Shown here: positions 3,048 to 18,461 of the stretch, one piece after another
How the letters are laid out: every line of letters starts with the position of its first letter
How positions within the stretch are numbered: position 1 is the first letter of the stretch
NCBI RefSeq assembly: GCF_001598055.1
Contig: NZ_CP014844.1
Location: 930,001-994,000 of the forward strand
Direction of reading: 5' to 3'
Length of the DNA stretch: 64,000 bases
From: Cupriavidus nantongensis
GTDB lineage: Bacteria > Pseudomonadota > Gammaproteobacteria > Burkholderiales > Burkholderiaceae
The notes under the pieces: model-generated
What the model was told of the DNA's origin: nothing
The model's input: the letters and a program-made list of their open reading frames with translations, nothing else
Database searches by the model: none
Program-made: the position numbers and the translations under genes

Positions 3048-5792
3048 ATGCCCCAGACCATCCGTCCCGCCTCCCGCCGCCGCATCGCCGCCGAACTGTT
3101 CCGCGCGATCTGGCGCTTCCGCGCGCGCGTGCTGGTCGCGGTGTCCTTGCTGCTGCTGGCCAAGGCCTGTGCCGTGGCGGTGCCGCTGATGCTCAAGCTG
3201 GTGGTCGACGAGGTCACGCCCGCCGCGGCCGGCACCGATGCCGCGCGCCTGGGGCTGGTGGCGATGCCGGTGTTCCTGGTACTGGCCTATGCCATCCTGC
3301 GGCTGCTCGGCAACGCCTTCAGCGAGCTGCGCGACGTGGTCTTTGCCTATGTGACGCAGAGCACGGTGGCGGCCTTCATGGAACGCGCCTTCGCGCACCT
3401 GCATGCGCTGGGCGCGCGCTTCCACGCGCAGCGCGCCACCGGCAGCGTGATCCGCGACCTGGAGAAGGGCACCGCGGCGATCGGCTTCCTGCTGGGCGTG
3501 GCGGTCTTTACCATCGTGCCGACGCTGATGGAGATCGTGTCGGTGCTGGCGATCATGATCGGCGCCTATGGCGCCGCCTTCGCCGCGATCATCCTGGGCG
3601 TGTTCGTGCTGTACGCCGGCTTTACCTATGTCTTTACGCAGCGGCGCATGCGCGTGCAGCGCCAGGTCAATGCGGTCGAGGCCACCACCAACAGCAAGGT
3701 GGTCGACAGCCTGCTCAACTACGACACCGTCAAGTTCTTCGCGCGCGAGTCGTTCGAGACCCGGCGCCTGTCCGAGATGCTGCAGCGCTGGGTCGGCATC
3801 AGCGTGGAAAACCAGTATGCGCTGTCGGCGCTGCATATCGGGCAGAGCGTGTGCATCGCGGTGGGGGTCGGCGCGGTGATGCTGCTGGCCACGCAGCGGG
3901 TGATCCAGGGCTCGCTGTCGGTGGGCGACCTGGTGCTGATCAACGCTTACATCATCCAGGTGGTGCTGCCGCTCAACACGCTGGGCTTTATCTTCCGCGA
4001 ATCGAACGACGCCATGACCAATGTCGAGCGGCTGTTCGCGCTGCTCGACGCGCATGGCAAGCCCGGCGAGGACCGCGACGCGCCGGCCGCGCGCCCGTTG
4101 CGCGTAAGCCGCGGCGAAATCGTGTTCGACCGTGTCAACTTCAGCTACGACCCCAGCCACCAGACCCTGTGGGACGTCAGCTTCCGCGCCGGCGCCGGCC
4201 AGACCGTGGCGGTGGTGGGCGGCAGCGGCTCGGGCAAGTCGACGCTGGCGCGGCTGCTGTTCCGGCTGTACCAGCCCGACAGCGGCAGCATCAGCATCGA
4301 CGGCCAGGACCTGCGCCTGGTGACGCAGCGCAGCCTGCGCGAACTGATCGGCATCGTGCCGCAGGACACCATCCTGTTCAACGACACCATCGCCTACAAC
4401 ATCGGCTATGGCCGGGAAGGCGCCACCCGCGCCGACATCGTCGCCGCGGCGCGCGCGGCGCAGCTCGACGCCTTTATCGACCGCCTGCCCGACGGCTACG
4501 AAACCCAGGTGGGCGAGCGCGGCGTGCGGCTGTCGGGCGGCGAGCGCCAGCGCGTGGCGATTGCGCGCGCGATGCTGAAGCGCCCGCCCATCGTGGTCTT
4601 CGACGAGGCCACCTCGGCGCTGGACACGCGCTCGGAGCGCGCGATCCAGCAGGAGCTGTCCGCAGTCGCGCGCGGGCGCACCGCACTGATCATCGCGCAC
4701 CGGCTCTCGACCATCGTCGATGCCGACCGCATCCTGGTGATGGAGCACGGCCGCATCGTCGAAGACGGCAACCACGCCACGCTGCTCGAGCGCGGCGGCA
4801 TCTACACCCAGATGTGGCAGTTGCAGCAGCAGCAGCGCGAGCTGGAACGCGCCGAACGGCGCCTGGCGCTGCAGCCGGTGCGCCTCGAGATCCTGCTGGC
4901 CAGCGTGGTCGACGGGCTGCGCGAGCTGATCGCCGAGCGGCATATCAACCTGTTCACGGTGCAGAGCGAGTCGGAGCTGCGCGTCACCGGCGATCCGGGC
5001 GTGCTGCAGAAGGCGATCTGGGAGCTGTGCCAGCACATGATCGCCACCATCGAGCCGGGCGGGCGGCTGGAACTGCGGCTCGAGCGGCTGGACGGCCAGG
5101 CCGGCCTGCGGCTGTCCGCCACGCCGGGCGACCTGCCGTTGCCGGATGTGCAGGGCCTGCACGAATGGCTGGCCGAGCACGGCGTTACGCTGAGCGCCGA
5201 CGGACCCGCGCACGCCTATCAGCTGCTGATGCCGATGCGCGCCGTGCAGGAACCCGAGCCGCGCCGCGCGCCGGGCGCTGGCGCGGCCGCCGCCGCGGGT
5301 GCCGCGCCAGGCGCCGGGCCCGTAGCGGAGGCGGCCGAGGCGCCCGAGGCGCCCGATGCGCAGGCGCTCAAGGGCCTGCGCGTGCTGCTGCTGGACGACG
5401 ACGAGCCCACGCGCGAGGTGCTGAGCGCCTCGCTCGAAGACTATGGCGCCCACGCCATCGCGCAGCAGCGCGGCGACGACGTGATTGCGCTGCTGGCCGG
5501 CACGCATCCCGGGCAATGGCCGCAGGTGCTGCTGTGCGACCTCGCGCTCGAGGAGGAGGACGGCTACACCGTGCTGCGCCGGGTGCGGCGGCTCGAGGCG
5601 CAGATGCAGGTGCCGCTGGGCAAGCGCATGACGGCGATCGCGCTGTCCGGGCACGCCGAGCCGCAGGACCGGATGCGCGCGCTGATGGCGGGATTCCAGC
5701 TGCACCTGTCCAAGCCGGTGCGGGTGGGCGAGCTGGTGGCGGCGATCCGTTCGCTGGCGGTGCGCTCCACGCCGGACGCGCAGCAAGCGTAG
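3048..5792 (+). CDS. ABC exporter (ATM1-like) fused to a degenerate kinase-like region and a receiver domain
   Basis: 914 residues. Residues 1-330 form a six-helix ABC exporter membrane domain of the ATM1/HMT1 type. Residues about 360-590 are the nucleotide-binding domain, with Walker A GGSGSGKST near 390, signature LSGGERQR near 495 and Walker B VVFDEATSALD near 513. A charged coiled-coil-like stretch follows (LQQQQRELERAERRL). Residues about 610-730 resemble a histidine-kinase dimerisation/ATPase region (a VLQKAIWELCQHMI helix like an N-box) but have no His phospho-acceptor or G-boxes. After an Ala/Pro linker, residues about 775-910 are a complete receiver: acidic LLDDDEP, phospho-acceptor Asp in LLCDLAL, Ser in ALSGHA and Lys in HLSKP. 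A normal ATM1 exporter would end near 600. Membrane half-transporter, presumably a homodimer. Confidence 0.88.
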   Translation: MPQTIRPASRRRIAAELFRAIWRFRARVLVAVSLLLLAKACAVAVPLMLKLVVDEVTPAAAGTDAARLGLVAMPVFLVLAYAILRLLGNAFSELRDVVFAYVTQSTVAAFMERAFAHLHALGARFHAQRATGSVIRDLEKGTAAIGFLLGVAVFTIVPTLMEIVSVLAIMIGAYGAAFAAIILGVFVLYAGFTYVFTQRRMRVQRQVNAVEATTNSKVVDSLLNYDTVKFFARESFETRRLSEMLQRWVGISVENQYALSALHIGQSVCIAVGVGAVMLLATQRVIQGSLSVGDLVLINAYIIQVVLPLNTLGFIFRESNDAMTNVERLFALLDAHGKPGEDRDAPAARPLRVSRGEIVFDRVNFSYDPSHQTLWDVSFRAGAGQTVAVVGGSGSGKSTLARLLFRLYQPDSGSISIDGQDLRLVTQRSLRELIGIVPQDTILFNDTIAYNIGYGREGATRADIVAAARAAQLDAFIDRLPDGYETQVGERGVRLSGGERQRVAIARAMLKRPPIVVFDEATSALDTRSERAIQQELSAVARGRTALIIAHRLSTIVDADRILVMEHGRIVEDGNHATLLERGGIYTQMWQLQQQQRELERAERRLALQPVRLEILLASVVDGLRELIAERHINLFTVQSESELRVTGDPGVLQKAIWELCQHMIATIEPGGRLELRLERLDGQAGLRLSATPGDLPLPDVQGLHEWLAEHGVTLSADGPAHAYQLLMPMRAVQEPEPRRAPGAGAAAAAGAAPGAGPVAEAAEAPEAPDAQALKGLRVLLLDDDEPTREVLSASLEDYGAHAIAQQRGDDVIALLAGTHPGQWPQVLLCDLALEEEDGYTVLRRVRRLEAQMQVPLGKRMTAIALSGHAEPQDRMRALMAGFQLHLSKPVRVGELVAAIRSLAVRSTPDAQQA

Positions 5793-5822: not shown

Positions 5823-6743
5823 TCAGGCGCGCGGCTCGCGCAGCCTGCGGCGCAGCATCAGCACTTCCGGCGGGATCACGCGCCGCTCCTGCCATACCCA
5901 TGGCATGCCGCCCAGCACTTCGGCCAGGCCGCGCCATCCCTGGCAGCGCCACAGCTGCGGCAATGCCGCGGCGGTCTCGCCCAGCGCCACATGCCATGGC
6001 AACCTCAGCCAGGCCGACCAGATCGCATTGCGCGCCAGCAGCGAGCGGCGCTGCGCGGGATTGCGCAGCGGACTGGGATGGTGATGCACCACCAGCTGCG
6101 GCGCGTACACCAGCTGCCATCCATGCGCGGCCAGGTCCAGCGCCAGCAGCGTTTCCTCGCCGCCGAGGAAGAAGCGCGGATGGTAGCCGCCGGCCTGGCG
6201 GAAGGCATCGGTGCGGAACGCGGTGGCGCCCGCCATCAGGCCCAGGATCGCACGGCCGGGCAGCATCGCCGAGGGCAGCGGGCTGGCCGCCATGCGCGTG
6301 CAGGTCGGGTCTTCGCCGCGGTGCTCGCCGACCAGGATGCGCGCCGTCAGCGCGGCCACGCGCGGATGGCGCTCGAACATGGCGCACGCCGCCGACAGCG
6401 AACCGGGCGCCCACCAGCAGTCGTCGTCGCAGAAGGCGACGTAGCGGGTGCGGGCCCAGTCCGCGCCCAGGTTGCGGCCGGCGGCGCCGAGGTTGCGCGC
6501 GCTGCGCAGCAGCGCGGCGTGCGGGAATTCGCTGCGCACCATGGCGGCGGTGCCGTCGTCCGAGGCGTTGTCGACCACGGCGATGGGCGGGCGTTCCGGC
6601 AGCGCACTCAGGCGCGCCAGCGCGGTGCGCACCGAATCGCGCCGGTTGTGCGTCAGCACCACCACGCTGATGTCGCAAGCGCGGGTGCGCGCAGAAGGTC
6701 GGGGAACGTAAGCGGTGGTTGATATCGGCATGGGGATGGGCAT
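5823..6743 (-). CDS. Glycosyltransferase family 2
   Basis: 306 residues. GT-A fold: SVVVLTHNRRDSV, then AVVDNASDDGTA (nucleotide-sugar binding), AFCDDDCWWAPG carrying the metal-binding acidic motif, and a later GGEETLLALDL segment typical of rhamnosyl/glycosyl transferases of this family. It lacks C-terminal membrane helices, so it probably acts on the cytoplasmic face. It follows the PIG-L gene with a 3-bp gap and is last in the minus-strand half of the glycan locus. Several Met codons crowd the N-terminus, so the start may be a few codons downstream. Donor and acceptor unknown. Confidence 0.85.
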   Translation of the reverse strand: MPIPMPISTTAYVPRPSARTRACDISVVVLTHNRRDSVRTALARLSALPERPPIAVVDNASDDGTAAMVRSEFPHAALLRSARNLGAAGRNLGADWARTRYVAFCDDDCWWAPGSLSAACAMFERHPRVAALTARILVGEHRGEDPTCTRMAASPLPSAMLPGRAILGLMAGATAFRTDAFRQAGGYHPRFFLGGEETLLALDLAAHGWQLVYAPQLVVHHHPSPLRNPAQRRSLLARNAIWSAWLRLPWHVALGETAAALPQLWRCQGWRGLAEVLGGMPWVWQERRVIPPEVLMLRRRLREPRA

Positions 6744-6746
6744 GAA

Positions 6747-7508
6747 TCAGGCAGCGCCGGCGTCGGCCGGCTGCAGCATCCAGTAGCGCTCGGGCGCGCA
6801 CAGGTCGCACAGCCGGTCTTCGCTGAACAGCTGCAGCTGGCTCTGGTAGGCGTTGAGCGCATAGCTCTTCTGCGTCAGGTACTGCGCCACCGGCAGGTTG
6901 ACGGGCGTGGCGCGCAGGCCGCTGTCCCGGCATTGCACCAGCCGCTGCTGCAGCAGGCCCGGCATGCGGCGGTAGATCGCGTCTTCGTAGTAGAGCCACT
7001 GCACGGGCGGGGGTGCGGCTGTGGCTGCGACGGCATGCGGCGCGCTCCAGGCGGCGCCGCGCGCGTGCGCGGCCAGCATCAGCAGCCGGCAGGCGTCATG
7101 CACCAGCGCATGGTCGGAATGGAACAGACCGAGCGGGGCTACGACCACGCCGTCGGTCTGCGTCAGCAGCACGGTGTGCAGCGCGTCGGCAAGCTGCTGC
7201 GCGGTGTAGCGGCGCCCGTACTGGCTGTCCCAGAAGTCCAGCCACACCGCGTGCGCGCCCAGCATGGTCAGCGCGTGGTTGTCCTCGCGCCGGCGCGACA
7301 GCACCGCCTGCTCGGCACTGGCGAAGCCGGCGGCCTGGTCCCAGTCCGGGGCCGGCATGTCGGCCGGCGGCACGCCCGCGAACACGGTCACCACCCGCGC
7401 CGCGCGCGCGGCCGCGATCAGCCCGCCGCAGCTGAACACGCCATCGTCCAGGTGCGGCGAGATCACGGTCACCGCAGCGGCGAGATCGACCACCATCGCC
7501 GTGCCCAT
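6747..7508 (-). CDS. PIG-L family N-deacetylase
   Basis: 253 residues. The PIG-L/LmbE signature VISPHLDDGVFSCGG (zinc-binding H-x-D-D) lies near residue 15, with a further His in FHSDHALVHDA for the third metal ligand. Family members remove acetyl groups from N-acetylglucosamine-type residues on lipids or small glycosides. Between a GT2 and a UDP-glucuronate decarboxylase gene it would most simply deacetylate an amino-sugar of the glycan built here. That role is inference from context. Confidence 0.82.
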   Translation of the reverse strand: MGTAMVVDLAAAVTVISPHLDDGVFSCGGLIAAARAARVVTVFAGVPPADMPAPDWDQAAGFASAEQAVLSRRREDNHALTMLGAHAVWLDFWDSQYGRRYTAQQLADALHTVLLTQTDGVVVAPLGLFHSDHALVHDACRLLMLAAHARGAAWSAPHAVAATAAPPPVQWLYYEDAIYRRMPGLLQQRLVQCRDSGLRATPVNLPVAQYLTQKSYALNAYQSQLQLFSEDRLCDLCAPERYWMLQPADAGAA

Positions 7509-7535
7509 GCCGCCCCCTCGCGCGCTGGCACGCCG

Positions 7536-8564
7536 TCAACTGAGCGCGGCACGCGCTTCGCGCGCGGTGGCGGACACCGGCACCACATTGCCGGGCGCGC
7601 CTTCGGCATGCGCCTGCGCGGCCAGCCGCGCGGCAAAGTAATCGACGGTGCGGCGCAGGCCGTCTTCGAGCGCGGTGTGCGGCTCCCAGCCCAGCAGCTG
7701 GCGCGCCAGCGTGATGTCGGGGCAGCGCTGGTGCGGGTCGTCGGCTGGCAGCGGGCGCATCTCGATGCGCGATCGCGAGCCGGTGGCGCGCAGCACCGCC
7801 TGCGCGATCTCGAGCATGGTGGTCTCGCAGGGGTTCCCCAGGTTGACCGGGGTGCCGCCCGCGGGAGCTTCCATCAGCCGGACCAGCGCGTCGACCATGT
7901 CGTCGACATAGCAGAAGGCGCGCGTCTGCGAACCGTTGCCGTAGACCGTCAGCGGTTGGCCGGCCAGCGCCTGGGTGATGAAGTTCGAGACCACGCGGCC
8001 GTCGGCCGGGTGCATGCGCGGCCCATAGGTGTTGAAGATGCGCGCGATGCGCACGTCCAGCCCGTGCTGGCGATGGTAGTCCATGAACAGGGTCTCGGCG
8101 CAGCGCTTGCCTTCGTCATAGCAGGAGCGGATGCCTACCGGATTGACGTGGCCCCAGTAGCCTTCCTGCTGCGGATGGTGCTCGGGGTCGCCATAGACTT
8201 CGCTGGTCGAGGCCTGCAGGATGCGCGCCCTGAGCCGCTTGGCCAGTCCCAGCATGTTGATGGCGCCGTTGACGCTGGTCTTGGTGGTCTGCACCGGGTC
8301 GTGCTGGTAGTGCACCGGCGAGGCCGGGCATGCGAGGTTGTAGATCTCGTCGACTTCCACATACAGCGGGAAGGTGACGTCGTGCCGCAGCAGCTCGAAA
8401 TTGGTCCGGCCCAGCAGGTGCGCGATGTTCTCCTTGGTGCCCGTGTAGAAGTTGTCCACGCACAGCACGTCCTGCCCGGCGCGCACCAGCCGCTCGCACA
8501 GGTGCGAGCCGAGGAATCCCGCGCCGCCGGTGACCAGGATGCGCTTGCGATCGCTTTCCTTCAT
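7536..8564 (-). CDS. UDP-glucuronate decarboxylase (UDP-xylose synthase)-like NAD-dependent epimerase
   Basis: 342 residues, extended SDR. Nucleotide-binding GGAGFLGSH near residue 12, the typical UXS segments [11 protein letters not shown] and [21 protein letters not shown], and the catalytic SCYDEGKR (Tyr-x3-Lys). These conserved stretches match UDP-glucuronate decarboxylases, which make UDP-xylose from UDP-glucuronate, better than RmlB or GalE. It would supply a pentose donor to the neighbouring glycosyltransferases. The start ATG follows AAGGAGAGC, a good ribosome-binding site. Confidence 0.85.
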
Positions 8565-8625
8565 TTCTGCTCTCCTTGCATTGCTTGCTCATGCGGGCCG
8601 GTCGTGTCCGCCGCTCGTGTCTACA

Positions 8626-9897
8626 TCAGGCCGCGGCGCGGCGGGCCCCGGCCTGCAGCACGGGCGCGCCGGCGCAGACGCGCGCATAGACCGCCTCCAT
8701 CTGCCGCGCCACGCCGGCCCACGTGAAATGCGCCTGCGCACGGCGCCGGCCCGCTTCGCCCAGCCTGCGCGCCAGCGCCGGATTGGCCGCCAGCTGCGCC
8801 AGCCGCGCCGCCAGCGCCGCCGGCGCCTTGGGCGGCACCAGGAAGCCGGTGTGCCCGTCCACCACGGTGGAGCGGATGCCGCCGACGTCGGCGCCGATCA
8901 CTGGCGCGCCGCACGCCATCGCCTCCACCGGCGTGATGCCGAAGGGCTCGTACCACGGCGTGGTCACGAAGACATCGGCGGCGCTGTAGAACAGCCGCAA
9001 CGTGTCGCGCCCGCGCCGGCCGGTAAACACCACGCGTTCGGCCACGCCCTCGGCGCTGGCCACGTCCTGCAGCCGGCCGATTTCCGGCGTGGCCTGCACG
9101 CTGGGCTGTTCCGAGTTGCCGCCGACCACGTACAGGGTGGCGTCGAGGCCGGTGTCGCGGCGCAGGCAGCCCAGCGCACGGATCACGTTGTCGATGCCCT
9201 TGCGCGGCACCAGCCGGCCCAGCTGCAGCACGCGGAAGCCATGCTGCGGCCAGCCCAGTGCGCGCCGCGCCGCATCGCGCGGCACCGGCGCGAACTCGTC
9301 CGCGTCGAAGCCGCACGGCACGGTCTGCACGCGCGCGGGATCGGCGCTGTACAGGTTGACCAGGTCGTCCAGGTCCTGCGGGCACTCCGCCACCACACAG
9401 TCGGCCTCGCGCACCAGCGTGTCCTCGATGCCGAAGCGGTCGTCGGGGAAGCCGTCGGTGCTGCCCTGGTGCAACCGGCGCACCTTGCCCAGCGCATGGA
9501 AGGTCATCACCAGCGGGATGCCGAGGGTGTGGCGCGCGCGCAGCGCGGCCAGCCCGGACATGAAGAAGTTGGCATGGAGCACGTCGTAGCCGGTGGCATC
9601 GCCGCGCACGAAGTCGGCCAGGAACGCGCCGAAGTCCTCCATATACGGCAGCAGCTGTTCCTTGGGGATCTGCACCGGCGGCCCGGCGGTAACGTGGATC
9701 ACGCGCACATTGGGCGCGAACGACACCACCTCGGGCAACAGCGCCTTGTCGCGCCGGGTGAAGACATCGACCTGGTAGCCGCGGCTGCCAAGCTGCCTCG
9801 CAAGATGCGCCACATAGATGTTCTGGCCGCCGCAATCGGTGCTGCCGACACTGGCGAGTGGCGAGGCATGTTCGCTGATCAGCGCGATCTTGCGCAT
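8626..9897 (-). CDS. Glycosyltransferase family 4 (sucrose-phosphate-synthase-like)
   Basis: 423 residues. The N-terminal glycine-rich acceptor domain MRKIALISEHASP...GGQNIYVAHLA is typical of retaining GT4 enzymes related to sucrose synthase. The C-terminal donor domain has RLVPRKGIDNVI and the E-x7-E motif around EPFGITPVEAMACG. No signal or membrane segment is visible. The start at 9897 begins the conserved strand, and upstream in-frame Met codons would add Arg-rich junk. First gene of the minus-strand half of the locus, 61 bp before the UXS gene. Confidence 0.85.
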   Translation of the reverse strand: MRKIALISEHASPLASVGSTDCGGQNIYVAHLARQLGSRGYQVDVFTRRDKALLPEVVSFAPNVRVIHVTAGPPVQIPKEQLLPYMEDFGAFLADFVRGDATGYDVLHANFFMSGLAALRARHTLGIPLVMTFHALGKVRRLHQGSTDGFPDDRFGIEDTLVREADCVVAECPQDLDDLVNLYSADPARVQTVPCGFDADEFAPVPRDAARRALGWPQHGFRVLQLGRLVPRKGIDNVIRALGCLRRDTGLDATLYVVGGNSEQPSVQATPEIGRLQDVASAEGVAERVVFTGRRGRDTLRLFYSAADVFVTTPWYEPFGITPVEAMACGAPVIGADVGGIRSTVVDGHTGFLVPPKAPAALAARLAQLAANPALARRLGEAGRRRAQAHFTWAGVARQMEAVYARVCAGAPVLQAGARRAAA

Positions 9898-10291
9898 GGT
9901 GGGCTCCGGTATTTTTGTGGCCGTGCCCGCAACGCGGACAGGGGCCGGGAGGTGGTGGCCCCTGCAGCTAGCGTGCCAATGCAGGCGTCGCCGCCACACA
10001 CTTCGTTTCCGTGCACACGGAACCGATGGAGAAGCGATATAGCGGTTCTCGCCCTGCATGCATCACCGCATAGCGCAGAAGACGCACCGGGTGCGCCGGC
10101 ATGCAGTTTGGTCATTCTTACGCCGCCCCTTTGTAATTTGCGCTTACCGATCTTTCATTTGCCGTCCTGCATTGCGCAGCGTTGCAACCGGCCCGATGTT
10201 TGCTGTGTCGATGGCGCCCATGCAGGTCTTGCTGCACGCGCTGCGCGCGTTCCGGTGGCGGCCTGCCCTTCAACCATCGATGGAGTTGCCC
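9898..10291. promoter_or_regulatory. Divergent intergenic region of the glycan locus
   Basis: 394 bp with no convincing gene. It must hold promoters for the minus-strand GT4 operon and for the plus-strand half. An inverted repeat TTCCGTG-CA-CACGGAA at 10007-10022 could be an operator, and the stretch 10110-10165 is AT-richer than its surroundings (CTTTGTAATTTGCGCTTACC). No known regulator motif was recognised. Confidence 0.4.
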
Positions 10292-10810
10292 ATGCCCATG
10301 ACCCCCGATGCGGGCCAGCCGCCCCGCGCCTCCCATGCCGGCGCCAGCCGCTTCAGCGATCCCGCCGCGGCGCGGCGCGCGGTCGAGCTGGCGCTGCCGA
10401 TGCTGCAGGCCTCGCTGCGCGACAAGGCCGTCGGCGAAAGCGGCTGCATGCATGTGGTCGTGATGGATCCGACGCTGCAGCCGGGCGATTGCGCCTTCGA
10501 GGAGGCGATCCTCTATGAGCATTCGCTGCCGTCGCGCGAGGCCTGGGATGCCGACTACAGCCGCTATGCGCGCGCCAAGGCCAGCCTGAGCTGGCGCACC
10601 GGCATGGCCAGCGCGCAGGTGGTGCACTGCAGCCCGCACCGGCTGCGCAGCGACGACACCCTGCTCGGCGGCGCGGTCGTGGTGGATGGCATCGTCGTCG
10701 CCGTCAGCGGCGCCAACGCGTGGTACGACGAGGCCTTTGCCGGCTGCGTGGCGATGCTGCTGCGGGCCGTGGCGCAGGGGTCCTGCATGCGTGCGCAGCC
10801 GGCCGGCTGA
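10292..10810 (+). CDS. Unrecognised protein at the head of the plus-strand glycan genes
   Basis: 172 residues from ATG 10292 (GGAG 6 bp upstream; an in-frame ATG at 10280 is possible). The N-terminus is Pro/Ala-rich. The rest is compact, alternating helices and strands (ARRAVELALPMLQASLRDK, CMHVVVMDP, GGAVVVDGIVVAVSGANAWYDEAFAGCVAMLL). The last segment loosely resembles the closing strands and helix of GlcG/HbpS-type (DUF336) proteins, but the resemblance is weak and I do not assign the family. Four Cys residues are spread without a CxxC. No signal peptide or membrane helix. Confidence 0.5.
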   Translation: MPMTPDAGQPPRASHAGASRFSDPAAARRAVELALPMLQASLRDKAVGESGCMHVVVMDPTLQPGDCAFEEAILYEHSLPSREAWDADYSRYARAKASLSWRTGMASAQVVHCSPHRLRSDDTLLGGAVVVDGIVVAVSGANAWYDEAFAGCVAMLLRAVAQGSCMRAQPAG

Positions 10811-10980: not shown

Positions 10981-11012
10981 GTCCATCACACACCGATCGC
11001 CAGGGAACCACC

Positions 11013-11783
11013 ATGCCTACTTCGCATTCGCCACGACGCGCCGCGCATACCGAAGCCGCCACGCTGCTGCAGCACCGCACCTATCTCGTCAGCGGCGCGG
11101 GCCGGGGCCTGGGCGCAGCCATCTGCCGCACGCTGGGCGCAGCCGGCGCCGCCGTGATCGTGGCCGATATCGACGACAAGCTTGCGCGCGACAGCGCCGG
11201 CGTGCTGGCCGAGGCCGGCGCGCAGGCGTGGCCGCTGCACCTGGATGTCTCCGACCCCGCTTCCGTGCGCGCCGCCTTCGAAGCCGTGCGCGCGCGCGGC
11301 ACGCGCCTTGACGGCATCGTCAACAACGCCGCCATCGACATCACGCTGCCGGTGGACGAGGTCGATGCGGAGACCTGGCGCAAGGTGCTGATGGTCAACC
11401 TGTACGGCCCCTACCTGATGGCGCATGCCGCCGTGCCGGTGCTGAAGGCGCAGGGCGGGGGGCATATCGTCAACATCGCCTCGACCGCGTCCAAGCGCGC
11501 ATGGCCCAATGCCTCGGCCTACCACGCCACCAAGTGGGGCCTGCTGGGCTTCTCGCATGCGCTGCATGCGGAACTGCGGCCGCACGGTATCAAGGTGTCG
11601 GCGATCGTCGCGGGCGGCATGCGCACGCCGTTCCTGCTCGACCGCTTTCCCGATATCGACCAGGGCAACCTGCAGGATCCGGCCAATGTCGCCAACGCGG
11701 TGCGCTTCGTGCTGACGCAGCCGGAAGAAACCGTGATCCCCGAGGTGATGGTTCTGCCGATGAAGGAGACCTCGTGGCCATGA
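11013..11783 (+). CDS. SDR-family NAD(P)-dependent oxidoreductase
   Basis: 256 residues, classical short-chain dehydrogenase. Cofactor motif SGAGRGLGAA near residue 26, NNAAID (NNAG-like), catalytic Ser in NIASTASK and Tyr170-x3-Lys174 in AYHATKWG. An Asp after the second strand (VVADIDD) favours NAD(H). It starts the run SDR-HAD-GT9-carbamoyltransferase-GT2-GT9-GT1 and its stop overlaps the next start (ATGA), so translational coupling is likely. Probably reduces or oxidises a sugar intermediate; substrate unknown. Confidence 0.82.
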   Translation: MPTSHSPRRAAHTEAATLLQHRTYLVSGAGRGLGAAICRTLGAAGAAVIVADIDDKLARDSAGVLAEAGAQAWPLHLDVSDPASVRAAFEAVRARGTRLDGIVNNAAIDITLPVDEVDAETWRKVLMVNLYGPYLMAHAAVPVLKAQGGGHIVNIASTASKRAWPNASAYHATKWGLLGFSHALHAELRPHGIKVSAIVAGGMRTPFLLDRFPDIDQGNLQDPANVANAVRFVLTQPEETVIPEVMVLPMKETSWP

Positions 11784-12421
11784 GCCCCGCACCCCCGCTA
11801 CGCGCGGCCGTGCTGCTGGACAAGGACGGCACGGTGCTGGACGACGTCCCCTACAACGTCGATCCGGCGCGCATGCGGCTTGCGCCAGGCGCCGCCGCCG
11901 CGCTGCGGCTGCTGGGCGGCCTGGGCCTGCCGCTGGTGGTGGTGACGAACCAGCCCGGGGTGGCTCATGGCCTGCATACCGAGGCCGAACTGGTGCCGGT
12001 GCGCGAACGGCTGGCGGCGATGTTTGCCGAGCATGGCGCTACGCTGAGCGGCTTCCTGTACTGCCCGCACCATCCCGAGGGGAAAGTGGCGCCCTACGCG
12101 CGCGCGTGCCTGTGCCGCAAGCCCATGCCCGGCCTGCTGCTGCAGGCGGCTGTGGCGTGGCGGCTCGACCTGGCGCGGTGCTGGATGATCGGCGACATCC
12201 TCAATGACGTCGAGGCCGGCAACCGCGCGGGCTGTACCACCGTGCTGGTCGACTGCGGCAACGAGACCGAATGGCAGCTGTCGCCTGCGCGCCAGGCCGA
12301 CTACGTGGTGCCCGCGCTGGACGCTGCCGCGCGCCTGGTGGTTGCGCGCATCCGGGCCGCGCAGCAGGCCGGCGCAGCAGCATCGACGGCCGCATCACCA
12401 TGCCATGCGGAGGCGCCATGA
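11780..12421 (+). CDS. HAD-IIIA phosphatase, GmhB-like (heptose bisphosphatase family)
   Basis: 213 residues. HAD motif I LLDKDGTVLDD (Asp14, Asp16), motif II Thr in VVTNQPGV, a zinc-type Cys/His loop CPHHPEGK...ACLCRKP, and motif III/IV GDILNDVEAG. The zinc loop is the hallmark of D-glycero-D-manno-heptose-1,7-bisphosphate 7-phosphatases and the histidinol-phosphatase relatives. Two GT9 heptosyltransferase-like genes downstream make a heptose substrate attractive. It overlaps both neighbours by 4 bp (ATGA). A Gly/Ala-rich C-terminal tail is non-essential-looking. Confidence 0.8.
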   Translation: MSPAPPLRAAVLLDKDGTVLDDVPYNVDPARMRLAPGAAAALRLLGGLGLPLVVVTNQPGVAHGLHTEAELVPVRERLAAMFAEHGATLSGFLYCPHHPEGKVAPYARACLCRKPMPGLLLQAAVAWRLDLARCWMIGDILNDVEAGNRAGCTTVLVDCGNETEWQLSPARQADYVVPALDAAARLVVARIRAAQQAGAAASTAASPCHAEAP

Positions 12422-13659
12422 ACTGGCAATCCGCGCGCAGCGTGCTGTGCGTGCGCCTCGACAATATGGGCGACGTGCTGATGAGCACGCCGGCGATGCA
12501 GGCGCTGGCCGATGCGCTGCCCGGCCGCCGGCTGACGCTGCTGACTTCGCACAGCGCGGCGGCACTGGCGCCGCACCTGCCGATGGTCAGCCGCGTGCTG
12601 GCCTGGGACGCGCCCTGGGCAAAGCACGCCGAGTCCCACGCGGCACCGGCGCCCGGGCCGGAGATTGCCGCGTGCGCGCGCTGGCTGGCGCGCTTTCGTT
12701 TCGACGCGGCGGTGATCTTTACCGTCTACAGCCAGAGCCCCTTGCCCGCCGCGGTGCTGTGCGCGCTGGCGGGCATTCCGCTGCGGCTGGCCTGCTGCCG
12801 CGAGAACCCCTACACGCTGCTGAGCGACTGGGTGCCGGATACCGAGCCCGGCACGCAGCCTGGCCAGCGTCCGCGCCACGAGGCGCAGCGCCAGCTCGAC
12901 CTGGTGGCGCAGGTGGGAGCGATGCCACGCGATACGCGCCTGCGTTTTCGCGTGCTGGCGTCGGACCGCGGCGCGGTTGCCGGGCGCCTGGCCGCGATCC
13001 GCGGCGGCCGCAGCGGGCCGGTGGTGGTGGTGCATCCCGGCGCCAGCGCGCCGTCGCGGCGCTGGCCGCCGGCGCGTTTTGCCCAGGTGGCGCACGCGCT
13101 CGCGGTGAAGGCCGGCGCGCACGTGCTGGTGACCGGCGATGCCGCCGAGCACGACATCGTGCGCGCGGTCTGCGCCGCCGCCGGCCACGCGTGCGTGGTA
13201 CCGCTCGCCGGCGCCTTGCGCCTGGGCGAAATGGGCGCGCTGCTGGAAGCCGCCGACCTGCTGGTGTCGAACAACACCGGGCCGGTCCACCTGGCCGCCG
13301 CGCTGGGCACGCCGGTGGTCGACCTGTACGCGCTGACCAACCCGCAGCACACGCCGTGGCAGGTGCCGCACCGCACCCTGTTCGCCGATGTGCCGTGCCG
13401 CTATTGCTACAAGAGCATGTGCCCGCAGGGACACCATCGCTGCCTGGAAGACGTGCCGGCCGCCCACGCGGTGCAGGCCGCGCTGGCGCTGCTGGGCAGC
13501 ACGCCCGACAGCCTGCCCGCGGTCGAACTGCCGTGGCCGGGCGCGGGCGCGGCCGCAGCGGCGCCAGCCGGGTTCGATGCCCTGCCGGCGATGCCGGACG
13601 ACGGTGCAACCCGCCACCTCCCACACGACGAGGCCGACCATGTACACCCTTGGCATTAA
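12418..13659 (+). CDS. Glycosyltransferase family 9 (heptosyltransferase-like)
   Basis: 413 residues. GT-B enzyme of the ADP-heptose:LPS heptosyltransferase family: VLCVRLDNMGDVLMSTPAMQAL at the N-terminus, VVVVHPGASAPSRRWPPARFA in the donor half, and the NNTGPVHLAAALGTPVVDLY motif (family D-[ST]-G-x-x-H, here N-T-G-P-V-H). CRYCYKSMCPQGHHRCLE is a Cys-rich insertion shared with some GT9 members. About 60 residues longer than WaaC/WaaF because of a C-terminal extension. The final 20 bp overlap the next gene. Confidence 0.83.
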   Translation: MNWQSARSVLCVRLDNMGDVLMSTPAMQALADALPGRRLTLLTSHSAAALAPHLPMVSRVLAWDAPWAKHAESHAAPAPGPEIAACARWLARFRFDAAVIFTVYSQSPLPAAVLCALAGIPLRLACCRENPYTLLSDWVPDTEPGTQPGQRPRHEAQRQLDLVAQVGAMPRDTRLRFRVLASDRGAVAGRLAAIRGGRSGPVVVVHPGASAPSRRWPPARFAQVAHALAVKAGAHVLVTGDAAEHDIVRAVCAAAGHACVVPLAGALRLGEMGALLEAADLLVSNNTGPVHLAAALGTPVVDLYALTNPQHTPWQVPHRTLFADVPCRYCYKSMCPQGHHRCLEDVPAAHAVQAALALLGSTPDSLPAVELPWPGAGAAAAAPAGFDALPAMPDDGATRHLPHDEADHVHPWH

Positions 13660-15421
13660 CGCCGCCTACCATGACTCAGCCGCCTGCCTGGTGCGCGATG
13701 GCGAGGTCATCGCCGCGGCGGAGGACGAGCGCTTCACCCATATCAAGCACGGCAAGCGCCCGGTGCCGTTCACGGCGTGGGAGCTGCCGTTCCACGCCAT
13801 CGACTATTGCCTGGGCGAGGCCGGCATCGCGCTGCGCGATGTCGACCATGTCGCCTATGCGTTCGACCCCGCGCTGATGCTGGGCGCGCGCCGGCATGAC
13901 GCCACCGTGACGCTGCCGCTGGAGCCGTCGGCGCACGGCGCCGCCAGTGGGCACGAGTCGCCGTGGGATCCGCTGTTCCTGTCGTACGTGGTCAACGCGC
14001 CGCGGCAACTGGCCAGCGGCGCGCCGCACCACCTCGCCGCGCGCTTTCGCGGCGTGCGCCACGACGGGCCGTTCCGCTGGCATTTCGTCGAGCACCACAT
14101 GGGGCATGAAGCCAGCGCCTTCCTGGCGGCGCCGTTCGCGCGCTGCGCGGTGCTGACCATGGACGGCCGCGGCGAGCGCGCCACCACCAGCTACGGCGTG
14201 TTCGACGGCAAGGAGTACCGGCGCATCAAGCAGATCGACCTGCCGGACTCGCTCGGCCTGCTGTACGAACGCGTTACGCGCCACCTGGGCTTCCTGCATT
14301 CGTCGGACGAGTACAAGGTGATGGCGCTGGCCTCGTACGGCAAGCCTGCGCACCTTGGCGTGTTCCGCGACATGGTCCGGCGCGATGCCGAAGGCGGCTA
14401 CCGCGTGGCGCAGCCCGACCTGGAAGCGTTGCTTGGGCCGCCGCGGCAGCGCGGCGAGGCCTTCGGCGCCGCGCATTTCGATATCGCGCGCTCGCTGCAG
14501 GAGGTGCTGGAGGAAACCGTGGTCGGCATGACCACCTGGCTGGCCGAGGCCACCGGCGAACGGCAGCTGGCCATGGCCGGCGGCGTGGCGCTGAACTGCG
14601 TGATGAACGCGCGCGTGCGCGACCAGAGCCCGTTCGACGAGGTCTGGGTGCAACCGGCTGCGGGCGACGCCGGCACCGCGCTGGGCGCGGCGCTGTGGAT
14701 CGACTTCCTGCAGCGCGGACGCCCGGCGCGGCAATGGTCGATGGAACACGCCTACCTGGGGCCGGCGTATGGCGAAGACGAGATCGCGGCCTTCCTTGAC
14801 TGGGCCAAGCTGCCTTACCGCCGGCTCGACGACCTGGCCGGGCAGACCGCCGAGCTGCTGGCGCAGAACAAGATCATCGGCTGGTTCCAGGGCCGCATGG
14901 AGTTCGGCCCGCGCGCGCTGGGCGCGCGCTCGATCCTGGCCTCGCCGATCGATCCCGGCATGCAGCAGCGGCTGAACCAGATCAAGGACCGCGAAGACTT
15001 CCGCCCGGTGGCGCCGGTGGTGATGCAGGAGCGCGCGCCGGAGTGGTTCAGCGCGGCCAGGCCCGGCCGCGGCGAAGCGCCGTTCATGCTGTTCATCTAC
15101 GACGTTCGTCCCGAGCAGGCGGCCCGCATCCCCGCGGTCTGCCACGTCGACGGCACCGCGCGCGTGCAGACCGTGCGCCGCGAGCAGAACCCCGCCTACT
15201 ACGATTTGCTGGCCGCGTTCGAGCGCCGCACCGGCGTGCCGATCCTGGTCAACACCTCGTTCAACACGCGCGGCGAGCCCATCGTGTGCACGCCGCGCGA
15301 TGCGGTCGAGTGCTTCTGGACCTCGCCGCTGGACGCGCTGGTGATCGGCCCGTTCCTGCTGGAGAAACCCGGCGCCGCAGGCGCCCAGGGACAGACGGGA
15401 GGCGCCCATGGACAGGGCTGA
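13640..15421 (+). CDS. Carbamoyltransferase, NodU/CmcH family
   Basis: 593 residues. N-terminal YrdC/Kae1-like ASKHA fold begins TLGINAAYHDSAACLVRDG, with the metal-binding HHMGHEASAF (His-x3-His) and DGRGERATT. The C-terminal domain ends with LVNTSFNTRGEPIVCTP, the signature of O-carbamoyltransferases such as NodU, TobZ and CmcH. These use carbamoyl phosphate and ATP to carbamoylate a sugar hydroxyl. In this locus the acceptor is most likely the glycan product. Full length for the family. Starts 20 bp inside the preceding gene. Confidence 0.9.
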   Translation: MYTLGINAAYHDSAACLVRDGEVIAAAEDERFTHIKHGKRPVPFTAWELPFHAIDYCLGEAGIALRDVDHVAYAFDPALMLGARRHDATVTLPLEPSAHGAASGHESPWDPLFLSYVVNAPRQLASGAPHHLAARFRGVRHDGPFRWHFVEHHMGHEASAFLAAPFARCAVLTMDGRGERATTSYGVFDGKEYRRIKQIDLPDSLGLLYERVTRHLGFLHSSDEYKVMALASYGKPAHLGVFRDMVRRDAEGGYRVAQPDLEALLGPPRQRGEAFGAAHFDIARSLQEVLEETVVGMTTWLAEATGERQLAMAGGVALNCVMNARVRDQSPFDEVWVQPAAGDAGTALGAALWIDFLQRGRPARQWSMEHAYLGPAYGEDEIAAFLDWAKLPYRRLDDLAGQTAELLAQNKIIGWFQGRMEFGPRALGARSILASPIDPGMQQRLNQIKDREDFRPVAPVVMQERAPEWFSAARPGRGEAPFMLFIYDVRPEQAARIPAVCHVDGTARVQTVRREQNPAYYDLLAAFERRTGVPILVNTSFNTRGEPIVCTPRDAVECFWTSPLDALVIGPFLLEKPGAAGAQGQTGGAHGQG

Positions 15422-16394
15422 GCCCAGGGTCGCGGTGGTGGTGCCCACCTGGCGCCGGCCGGCGCTGCTGGCGCGCTGCCTGCAGGCGCTGTGCGCGCAA
15501 CGCCTGCCCGCGCAGGCATACGAGATCATCGTTGCCGACGATGGCTGCGAGGCTCGCATCGAACGGCTGGTGGCGCTGATGGCCGCGCAGCATCCGCACC
15601 ATGCGCTGCGCTATGTGCCGGTGCCGGGCACGCAGGGGCCGTCGGGCGCGCGCAATGCGGGCTGGCGCCGCGCGCGCGCGTCCGTGATTGCCTTTACCGA
15701 CGACGACACCGTGCCCGATCCGAGCTGGCTCGAAGCCGGCTGCGCCGCGCTCGCGGCGCAGCCGGAATGCTGCGCCGTGGCCGGCACCGTGCACGTGCCG
15801 CTGCCGGCGCGGCCGACCGACCACGAGCGCGATACCGGCGGCCTGGCGCACGCCGAGTTCGTCACCGCCAACTGCTTTGTCCGGCGCGACGCGCTGCTGC
15901 GCATCGGCGGCTTCGACGAGCGCTTTACGCGCGCGTGGCGCGAGGATTCGGACCTGCAGTTCCGGCTGATGCAGCAGGTCTGCCCGGTGGGGCGCGCGCC
16001 CGCGGCCGTGGTGGCGCATCCGGTCCGTCCGGCCGCATGGGGCAGCAGCGTCGCGGCGCAGGCTAAGGTGTACTTCGACGCGCTGCTGTACAAGAAGCAT
16101 CCGCGCCTGTACCGGCAGCGCATCCGCCGCGTGCCGCCCTGGCATTACTACGTGACGGTGCTGGCGCTGCTGGCCACGCCGATCGCATGGTTGGCGGGCG
16201 CGCCGGTGGTGGCCGCGGCGGCGGGCCTGCTGTGGCTCGGACTGACCGCGGCATTCTGCGCGCGGCGCCTGCGCGGCGCGGCGCTGACGCCGGCCCATGT
16301 GGCCGAGATGGCGTTCACCTCGATGCTGATCCCGCCGCTGTCGCTGTACTGGCGGCTGCGCGGCGCGCTGGCGTTCCGGGTGGTGTTCCTATGA
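15408..16394 (+). CDS. Membrane-associated glycosyltransferase family 2
   Basis: 328 residues. GT-A motifs VVVPTWRRPALLARCL, IVADDGCE, and FTDDDTVPDPSW (DxD-like), then GGFDERFTRAWREDSDL. The C-terminal 90 residues contain two to three hydrophobic segments (YYVTVLALLATPIAWLAG, VVAAAAGLLWLGLTAAF, then a less hydrophobic one), suggesting membrane anchoring. Overlaps the carbamoyltransferase end by 14 bp and the next gene by 4 bp. Confidence 0.85.
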   Translation: MDRAEPRVAVVVPTWRRPALLARCLQALCAQRLPAQAYEIIVADDGCEARIERLVALMAAQHPHHALRYVPVPGTQGPSGARNAGWRRARASVIAFTDDDTVPDPSWLEAGCAALAAQPECCAVAGTVHVPLPARPTDHERDTGGLAHAEFVTANCFVRRDALLRIGGFDERFTRAWREDSDLQFRLMQQVCPVGRAPAAVVAHPVRPAAWGSSVAAQAKVYFDALLYKKHPRLYRQRIRRVPPWHYYVTVLALLATPIAWLAGAPVVAAAAGLLWLGLTAAFCARRLRGAALTPAHVAEMAFTSMLIPPLSLYWRLRGALAFRVVFL

Positions 16395-17521
16395 ACGCAC
16401 GCGTCGAGCCGCTCACGGCCTTGCCCCTCGCCCGGCATCCGCAGCAAGCGGCGCGACGCCGTGCGGCGCCGGTGCGCGTGCGGCGCATTGCGGTGTTCCG
16501 CGCGCTGCAGCTCGGCGACATGCTGTGCGCGGTGCCGGCGCTGCGGGCGTTGCGCGCGGGCGAGCCCGAGGCCCGCATCACGCTGATCGGCCTGCCGTGG
16601 GCGCAGGAGTTCGTGTCACGCTTCAGCGCGCTGGTGGACGATTTGATGGTGTTTCCCGGCGCACCGGGTATGCCGGAACAACCTTGCACCGAGGCCGCCG
16701 CGGGCCCGTTCTACGCCGCGGCGCACGCGGCGCGCTTTGACCTGGCGATCCAGCTGCACGGCAGCGGCGCGCTCACCAACGCCGTGGTGCAGCGGCTGGG
16801 CGCCCGGCGCATGGCCGGCTTCTGTCCGGACCCCGCCGCGGCGCGCTGCAGCCGCGCCGGCGTGCTGGTGCCGTGGCCGCAGGGCCACGAGGTCGAGCGG
16901 CTGCTGGCGCTGATGCAGGCGCTGGGCTATCCGTGCGCGGACCGCAGCCTGGCGTTTCCGCTGCGCCCGCTCGACCACGCCAGCTGGCGGATGCTGGCCG
17001 CCGAGCATGGATTGGTTGCCGGCGAATACGTGTGCCTGCACGCGGGCGCGCGCATGCTGTCGCGGCGCTGGCCGGTGGAGCGCTTTGCCGAGGCCGGGCG
17101 CGCGCTGCGGCGCCACTGGAAGGTGGTGCTGACCGGTAGCCGCGACGAGGCCGCGCTGGTGGCGCAGCTGGCGCGGCGCCTGGGCAAGCCGGTGGTCAAC
17201 CTGTGCGGGCAGACCGCGCTGGGCACGCTGGCCGCACTGATCCGTGACGCGCGCCTGCTGCTGTGCAATGACACCGGCGCCTCGCATATTGCCGCGGCGG
17301 TGGGCACGCCCAGCGTGGTGGTCTCGTGCGGCAGCGACAGCGCGCGCTGGGCGCCGCTCGACACCACGCTGCATCGCGTGCTTGCGGACCAGCCGCCATG
17401 CCGCCCATGCATGCACCAGCGCTGCCCGCTGGCCGGTCATCCGTGCGCGTCGAATATCAGCGTGGCCAGCGTGGTGGAGGCCGCGCTGGCGCTGGCGGCC
17501 CGGGAGCGCGGCCATGGCTAG
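16391..17521 (+). CDS. Glycosyltransferase family 9 (second heptosyltransferase-like)
   Basis: 376 residues. IAVFRALQLGDMLCAVPALRALRAG at the start of the first Rossmann half and CNDTGASHIAAAVGTPSVVV (the GT9 D-T-G-x-x-H motif, intact here) in the second. YVCLHAGARMLSRRWP matches the donor-binding region. It also carries a Cys-rich segment near the C-terminus (CRPCMHQRCPLAGHPC), as its paralogue at 12418 does. The two are probably sequential transferases acting on the same chain. Confidence 0.85.
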   Translation: MNARVEPLTALPLARHPQQAARRRAAPVRVRRIAVFRALQLGDMLCAVPALRALRAGEPEARITLIGLPWAQEFVSRFSALVDDLMVFPGAPGMPEQPCTEAAAGPFYAAAHAARFDLAIQLHGSGALTNAVVQRLGARRMAGFCPDPAAARCSRAGVLVPWPQGHEVERLLALMQALGYPCADRSLAFPLRPLDHASWRMLAAEHGLVAGEYVCLHAGARMLSRRWPVERFAEAGRALRRHWKVVLTGSRDEAALVAQLARRLGKPVVNLCGQTALGTLAALIRDARLLLCNDTGASHIAAAVGTPSVVVSCGSDSARWAPLDTTLHRVLADQPPCRPCMHQRCPLAGHPCASNISVASVVEAALALAARERGHG

Positions 17522-18461
17522 GCGGCTGCGCATCCTGACCTGGCACGTGCACGGGAACTACCTGTATTACCTGTCGCAGATCCCGCACGAGCTGTACCTG
17601 GTCACGCGCGCTGACGGCACGCCCGGCTATGCCGGCGTCGGCGGCGCGTTGCCGTGGGGCGCCAACGTGCACGAGGTGCCCTACGACGCGGTCCCGGCCG
17701 GCCGCTTCGACTGCGTGCTGTACCAGCACCGGCACCATTACGAGCATGACCGCGTCGACCTGCTCAGCGCGGCGCAGCGCGCGCTGCCGGCGATCTACCT
17801 GGAACACGATCCGCCGCAGGAACACCCGACCAACACGCGCCATCCGGTGCAGGATCCGTCGATGCTGCTGGTGCACGTGACGCCGTTCAACGCGCTGATG
17901 TGGGACAGCGGGGTCACGCCGTGCCGCGTGATCGAGCACGGCGTGCTGGTCGACGAGGCGGTGCGCTACAGCGGCGAACTGGCGCGCGGCATCAGCGTGG
18001 TCAACCACCTGTCGCGGCGCGGCCGCCGGCTCGGCGCCGACCTGTTCGCGCGCGTGCGCGAGCAGGTGCCGCTCGACCTGGTCGGCATGGCGGCGCAAGA
18101 GGCGGGCGGACTGGGCGAGATACCCAACCCGCAACTGGCGGCGTTCGTCGCGCGCTACCGCTTCTTCTTCAACCCGATCCGTTACACCAGCCTGGGGCTG
18201 GCGGTGGTGGAGGCGATGATGCTGGGGGTGCCGGTGGTCGGCCTGGCCACCACCGAACTGGCCACGGTGATCCAGAGCGGCAACAACGGCTATGTCGATA
18301 CGCGCGTCGAGGTGCTGGTCAGCGTGATGCGCGAGCTGCTGGACGATCCGGAACTGGCGCGCGCCTGGGGCGAGCGCGGCTGCCGGGTGGCGCGCGAGCG
18401 CTTCGGCATCGGCCGCTTCGTGGCGGAGTGGGACGAGACCCTGCGCGCGGTCTGTGCGTGA
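17514..18461 (+). CDS. Glycosyltransferase, GT1/GT4-like, short form
   Basis: 315 residues. Begins RILTWHVHGNYLYYLSQIPHELYLV and ends with a typical GT-B donor segment (SLGLAVVEAMMLGVPVVGLATTE, then GYVDTRVEVL). The E-x7-E motif is reduced to a single Glu in VVEAMM. Related proteins occur in exopolysaccharide and aminoglycoside-like clusters. The start overlaps the preceding gene by 8 bp. It is the last gene of the operon; no strong terminator is seen before the convergent hypothetical gene (16-bp gap). Confidence 0.75.
   Translation: MARRLRILTWHVHGNYLYYLSQIPHELYLVTRADGTPGYAGVGGALPWGANVHEVPYDAVPAGRFDCVLYQHRHHYEHDRVDLLSAAQRALPAIYLEHDPPQEHPTNTRHPVQDPSMLLVHVTPFNALMWDSGVTPCRVIEHGVLVDEAVRYSGELARGISVVNHLSRRGRRLGADLFARVREQVPLDLVGMAAQEAGGLGEIPNPQLAAFVARYRFFFNPIRYTSLGLAVVEAMMLGVPVVGLATTELATVIQSGNNGYVDTRVEVLVSVMRELLDDPELARAWGERGCRVARERFGIGRFVAEWDETLRAVCA

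Follow-up and report, generated by a model that had tools for sequence, protein, structure and literature searches.

Two-component systems are known mainly for the control of transcription, enzymes and motility. The SLC5/STAC histidine kinases carry a transporter and two-component domains in one chain, as described in the available part of PMC9100948. The structures of ScAtm1 and human ABCB7 showed ATPase domains interacting via their C-terminal extensions (available text of PMC9329353), and in a model of PexA the C-terminal helices were predicted to stabilize the inward-facing state (available text of PMC6424863). Atm1 homologues largely share the polar residues of the glutathione site, and none of 410 surveyed AtAtm3 homologues had a Cys in TM6, both according to the accessible portion of PMC9000953. 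The gene described here joins an exporter of this type to the end of a hybrid histidine kinase and lies beside a set of sugar genes. Its architecture and setting suggest an export pump that would be switched by a signaling phosphate.

Architecture of the fusion protein and its receiver site

The window (the whole stretch of DNA analyzed, 64,000 nucleotides of Cupriavidus nantongensis) harbors at 3048..5792 (+) one uninterrupted frame with an ATG start. The single frame, the Pfam matches and the relatives showed that the encoded protein of 914 residues begins as an ATM1-type half-exporter, continues into a degenerate CA region of the histidine-kinase kind and ends in a receiver, and the source genome carries a single copy of this fusion. 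The exporter membrane domain (residues 29–308; 3132..3971, +) matched PF00664 (ABC_membrane, E 6.6e-34), the ATPase domain (residues 376–523; 4173..4616, +) matched PF00005 (ABC_tran, E 4.2e-32) and the receiver (residues 779–901; 5382..5750, +) matched PF00072 (Response_reg, E 7.5e-15), all three above the Pfam cut-off. The Response_reg score of the window protein was 55.5 bits vs. a curated cut-off of 30.2, and the profile search matched this domain in 39/39 homologues. The ATPase domain has complete Walker A, Q-loop, LSGGE, Walker B DE and H-loop motifs, which were conserved in 39/39 homologues, with Ser at Walker A position 392 in two of them. An earlier note, made from the letters of the gene, had read the single chain as an ATM1-like half-exporter followed by a worn-out kinase region and a receiver, and the Pfam and solved-structure matches are in agreement with this reading.

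The receiver contains the acidic pair D783/D784, the putative phospho-acceptor D831 (codon at 5538..5540, +), S867 and K889 (codon at 5712..5714, +), all conserved in 39 homologues. Over 81 aligned rows, D783 was retained in 78, D784 in 79, D831 in 81, Ser/Thr867 in 80 and K889 in 79. The acidic pair, phospho-acceptor Asp, Ser and Lys had been pointed out in the earlier note as parts of a receiver; the row counts (81/81 for the Asp, 79/81 for the Lys) and the Response_reg match bear this out.

In the middle region (about residues 597–733; 4836..5246, +), the window protein did not reach E 1 against the HATPase_c profile, and 16/39 homologues reached it at E ≤ 1 (best 1.5e-6). Owing to these matches in the homologues, though not in the window protein, the region looks like a decayed CA domain. 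In an alignment with seven true kinases, the G1 box was complete in 0/81 rows and both N-box Asn were present in 0/81, which fits the worn-out kinase core proposed previously. The column of the phosphorylatable His of the H box was a gap in 81/81 rows, with no HisKA remnant, in a test whose rows began at residue 590 of the window protein, where the ATPase domain is about to end. Judged from these motifs, the middle region is hardly a kinase. With no H box, no complete G1 box and no row with both N-box Asn, the tail plausibly accepts phosphate and would hardly donate it. A search of solved structures with the tail gave 62 matches; all 60 listed cover the receiver, and none covers the CA part alone.

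Relatives of the fusion and evolution of its parts

The 80 loci compared are the best 80 of 111 relatives confirmed by a scan of genome contigs; many are close kin and not independent. Exporter and tail lie in one frame in 78/80 relatives, and the other two (L045 and L104) are partial, being counted in the 81-row figures and omitted from the 79-row figures. The single frame speaks against a frameshift or annotation artefact, which the earlier note had raised against its own reading, and an assembly artefact was rejected on the same count. An inner TAG had been flagged in one congeneric row, which in fact ends at its own stop. By record title, 78 loci belong to Betaproteobacteria and two to Gammaproteobacteria, with 71 assigned to Burkholderiales; the titles name 20 genera and give none for 10 loci.

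A protein search with the tail, in which only the 8000 candidates with most words in common were scored, gave 80 matches. The precomputed Pfam list showed ABC and receiver domains together in 42 of these (P0002–P0043, two of them partial); almost all of the remaining 38 are kinases that carry receivers. The public record P0002 names the receiver in its description; hence, the architecture had already been noticed by an annotator. The fusion is present in 14/36 congeneric genomes (the window's own included). The tail was found in 3 of 300 genomes drawn from the order, where scoring was limited to the seven leading first-look candidates of each genome and a diverged tail could escape. In 274 genomes drawn from the whole class, there were two hits besides the window's own. 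One of them was set aside as a hybrid-kinase-like frame with no exporter signature motif in the stretch examined, and the other sits in a 2259-aa frame.

A crude estimate of dN/dS against the four nearest of the relatives tested was 0.016–0.115 for the receiver, 0.060–0.094 for the CA region and 0.030–0.046 for the exporter; against seven more distant relatives, the corresponding values were 0.15–0.47, 0.22–0.49 and 0.11–0.28. The mean pairwise distance over 79 rows was 0.376 for the exporter, 0.605 for the CA region and 0.497 for the receiver. The CA region is the most variable of the three domains, and both tail domains evolve faster than the exporter. By these estimates, the constraint on the tail is real, yet looser than that on the exporter. 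A nonfunctional tail, either a relic in decay or an artefact of assembly, would account for a CA region that is degenerate and the most variable of the three domains, but it is scarcely credible given the single frame in 78/80 relatives, D831 in 81/81 rows, the receiver omega (0.016–0.115) against the four closest relatives tested and the conservation across genera.

The exporter half has the type IV half-exporter fold with NBD motifs and is nearest to Atm1, the closest solved chain being the ATM1-type exporter of 4mrn over residues 24–596 (E 2e-145). Its best NCBIfam score was obtained with the lipid A flippase MsbA (415.7 bits). Identity with MsbA was rejected as this score falls below the curated equivalog cut-off of 602 and Atm1, rather than MsbA, provides the nearest solved chains. 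The source genome also encodes, at C1:756734-758479, an ordinary Atm1-type exporter that has no tail and shares 49% identity with the exporter part of the fusion.

Residues R210, N269, Y195, R206, Q272, G319 and R323 of NaAtm1 were taken by us as those of the glutathione pocket. The equivalent of R210 was R in 16/16 ordinary Atm1 exporters and Q, E or L in 79/79 fused exporters, and that of N269 was N in 16/16 and H in 78/79, respectively. The equivalents of Y195, R206, Q272, G319 and R323 were the same as in Atm1 in 79/79 fusions; the fused exporters thus retain the glutathione pocket in part, not in full. A Cys was found two residues before the TM6 proline in 63/79 fusions, with Val at this position in the window protein. 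The pocket changes favor a changed substrate, although they are no proof of it.

The fusion could also be an ordinary exporter like Atm1, with substrates of the glutathione or metal-thiol type, which simply stands beside the sugar cluster, its receiver tuning it to metal or redox stress. The Atm1 exporters as closest solved relatives and the five retained pocket residues (Y195, R206, Q272, G319 and R323 equivalents) agree with this. Such a role nevertheless appears quite improbable, since 79/79 and 78/79 fusions differ at the equivalents of R210 and N269, respectively, vs. 0/16 ordinary Atm1, the TM6 Cys of 63/79 fusions (Val in the window protein) contrasts with none in the 410 AtAtm3 homologues of the accessible portion of PMC9000953, an ordinary Atm1 is retained separately in the genome (C1:756734) and the fusion is linked to the sugar cluster.

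A branch with SH-aLRT 100 separated the fused exporters from ordinary Atm1, from NaAtm1 and from two further ABC rows. The tree, built by a quick method without bootstrap, comprised 40/79 full fused rows (that of the window plus every second locus) together with 16 ordinary Atm1 exporters, NaAtm1 and an outgroup of two rows. Tail and exporter distances were correlated (r 0.90 for the CA region and 0.83 for the receiver), with 0/499 permutations as high. Tail and exporter, by this measure, diverged together. The single clade of fused exporters and the correlated distances would be explained best if an Atm1-type exporter had, once and long ago, captured the CA-receiver end of a hybrid kinase.

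The adjoining glycan-type gene cluster

Neighbors of the fusion were counted across the 80 loci by blastp of the window genes (E 1e-10 and 70 bits) within a flank of ≤10 kb, shorter at contig ends. On the minus strand lie a GT2 glycosyltransferase (5823..6743, PF00535, homologue in 42/80 loci), a member of the PIG-L deacetylase family (6747..7508, PF02585, 31/80), a sugar-nucleotide epimerase/dehydratase that reached no NCBIfam equivalog (7536..8564, PF16363/PF01370, 35/80) and a GT4 glycosyltransferase (8626..9900, 56/80) whose nearest NCBIfam model is MshA, at 291 bits below the cut-off of 462.5. On the plus strand are a small, weakly HbpS-like protein (10280..10810, PF03928 in 3/18 members with best E 0.0022, 43/80), an SDR oxidoreductase (11007..11783, PF00106, 40/80), a HAD-IIIA phosphatase that is GmhB-like and below the GmhB cut-offs (11783..12421, 62/80), a heptosyltransferase-like GT9 below the equivalog cut-offs (12415..13659, PF01075, 62/80), a carbamoyltransferase (13640..15421, PF02543/PF16861, 62/80), a second GT2 (15408..16394, PF00535, 56/80), a second GT9 (16187..17521, PF01075, 51/80) and a second GT4-type glycosyltransferase (17244..18461, PF00534, 47/80), the starts of the last two not being refined. 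The GT4 nearest MshA beside the PIG-L deacetylase (6747–9900) presumably recalls the first two steps of a mycothiol-type pathway.

At least three of the 12 cluster families were found near the fusion in 66/80 loci, and their order and orientation vary. The carbamoyltransferase was not found in the flank (≤10 kb) of 18/80 loci, about 8 of which show little or no cluster. Its orthologue (≥1094 bits) is present in the same 14/36 congeneric genomes as the fusion. In the 300-genome draw of the order, a clear carbamoyltransferase orthologue (≥842 bits, the rest being ≤418) was present in six genomes; three of these are the three with the tail, and the other three gave no tail match. Two of the latter, G093 and G260, contain a large part of the cluster and show no match to the fused exporter within ∼17 kb on either side of the carbamoyltransferase; in G176, only a GT2 and the epimerase lie near the carbamoyltransferase, along with a weak partial ABC match. 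The exporter is hence tied to the cluster and is not indispensable to it, as clusters without it occur in G093 and G260. In these two genomes (L118–L121), the cluster lies amid other genes: those of a hemerythrin, topoisomerase IB, BrkB, MFS and glucan enzymes in G260, where the frame matching MFS adjoins the cluster, and a two-component pair in G093.

Two further observations concern the neighborhood of the fusion. The likely start of the small protein overlaps the stop codon of the fusion in L051, L052, L059 and L079 (offset 0), which suggests translational coupling of the two in these loci. A nucleotide-sugar dehydrogenase lies near the fusion in 13/80 loci (L063, L073 and others), the L073 member being above the TIGR03026 cut-off; supply of a sugar acid would fit its presence.

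The substrate of the fused exporter is most likely the product of the adjoining cluster, and this product is probably a carbamoylated glycan or glycolipid. A conserved sugar cluster, mainly of Burkholderiales, thereby gains a candidate exporter.

Candidate kinase partners, the proposed switch and known systems

A histidine kinase was found within the flank (≤10 kb) of the fusion in 14/80 loci with a home-made profile (E 1e-8), and no kinase is regularly linked to the fusion among the 80 loci. In four congeneric genomes, a CheB-CheR-PAS hybrid kinase lies 1.2–1.4 kb from the fusion, and in two more it lies ∼13.4 kb away. In L046 (2685–6938), it is a 1418-aa CheB-CheR-PAS-HisKA-HATPase-receiver protein at 1.2 kb. 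The orthologue in the source genome (70% identity) is unlinked, being on another contig at C2:1509067-1513191. The kinase was matched in 20/60 genomes searched, nine with the fusion and 11 without. It was not accepted as the cognate partner as it is linked in 6/14 fusion-bearing congeneric genomes and shows matches at E 1e-250 in 11 genomes without the fusion and no match in five with it. It is a lead, not an established partner. The statement in the earlier note that the kinase partner is not encoded next door holds for the window, and some relatives depart from it in having the hybrid kinase close by. That note had taken in neither the sugar cluster nor the changed exporter pocket nor the hybrid kinase 1.2–1.4 kb from the fusion in four congeneric relatives.

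It had also offered the option that the exporter reports flux, the receiver serving as a phosphate sink or relay for a signaling chain such that the transport state controls the outward flow of phosphate. The receiver is intact and the hybrid kinase lies 1.2–1.4 kb away in four congeneric genomes, as this option would have it. With the H box absent and no complete CA motifs in 81/81 rows, however, the chain would be without its own sending part, and the nearby kinase is also present in 11 congeneric genomes without the fusion. Hence, while the domain reading of the earlier note stands, the flux option is weakened, as the tail can receive phosphate and would hardly donate it; we consider it very improbable.

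Phosphorylation-gated transport is the best fit to the sequence data. Two copies of the protein, each an ATM1-type half-transporter, would pair into a homodimeric ABC exporter of the inner membrane that is dedicated to the cluster product. About 320 residues would have been taken once from a hybrid histidine kinase, starting just after the phosphorylated-His helix, and this kinase-derived tail would hang below each ATPase domain; as half-exporters work as homodimers, two receivers would lie beneath two ATPase domains. The CA part, its kinase motifs lost, may act as a scaffold, and D831 of the receiver would take phosphate from a kinase encoded elsewhere. Phosphorylation would alter receiver pairing in the homodimer and with it the approach of the two ATPase domains, by which export would be switched after translation. 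Such pairing could act at the place where ScAtm1 and ABCB7 have their C-terminal contacts between ATPase domains. The homodimer, the substrate, the phosphorylation, the direction of the switch and the identity of the kinase are the parts of this explanation that we infer.

An inner-membrane exporter of the cluster product, whose ATPase dimer is gated by a receiver phosphorylated by a kinase in trans, is in our judgment evenly poised between right and wrong. The broader proposal of an exporter family under direct post-translational two-component control, in which the receiver switches the export of a carbamoylated glycan and the dead kinase domain is the transmission piece, is tentative and falls a little short of that. 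Several observations count against the main explanation: the exporter is not indispensable to the cluster, 18/80 loci are without the carbamoyltransferase in the flank, no kinase is a regular neighbor, the Y195, R206, Q272, G319 and R323 equivalents are unchanged from Atm1 and the tail domains evolve faster than the exporter. In a rival reading, the tail would clamp the ATPase domains structurally or serve as their docking module, with the receiver fold used for dimerization or partner binding and phosphorylation irrelevant. The decay of the adjoining CA part, the C-terminal helices that already join the ATPase domains in ScAtm1/ABCB7 (available text of PMC9329353) and the lack of a kinase regularly beside the fusion are consistent with such a clamp. 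Conservation is, however, strongest at the residues of phosphorylation chemistry (D831 in 81/81 rows, K889 in 79/81) while the adjacent CA motifs have decayed, and a purely structural tail is therefore unlikely, if credible.

If phosphorylation-gated transport is true, a receiver inside an exporter makes transport itself the response output, and the fusion would be a clean test case for the control of an ABC ATPase by aspartyl phosphate. In the searches of open-licence papers, no description was found of the fusion architecture or of the sugar cluster. The exporter half and the tail half are each of known kinds; what these searches did not find described is the two joined in one chain, with the kinase region dead, the receiver site conserved and a sugar cluster linked. 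The zinc-linked ABC transporter in the available part of PMC7912956 was set aside, being a six-gene uptake-type system unlike the fusion.

Residues 24–596 of the fusion align with NaAtm1, and the fused clade branches among betaproteobacterial Atm1 rows. Compared with the ATM1-type exporters (NaAtm1, Cupriavidus AtmA and ABCB7/Atm1), the fusion has ∼320 extra residues (CA remnant and receiver), a changed pocket and linkage to a sugar cluster. It shares with hybrid histidine kinases the order of CA region and then receiver; its tail resembles them end to end (P0044 onward), and a hybrid kinase in the source genome matches fusion residues 598–904. Unlike these kinases, it has no HisKA/H box and no complete N or G1 box (81/81 rows), and an exporter replaces the sensor. 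Compared by description, as given in the available part of PMC9100948, the SLC5/STAC proteins join an uptake symporter to an active kinase as a sensor, whereas the fusion joins an ABC exporter to a receiver, with no active kinase.
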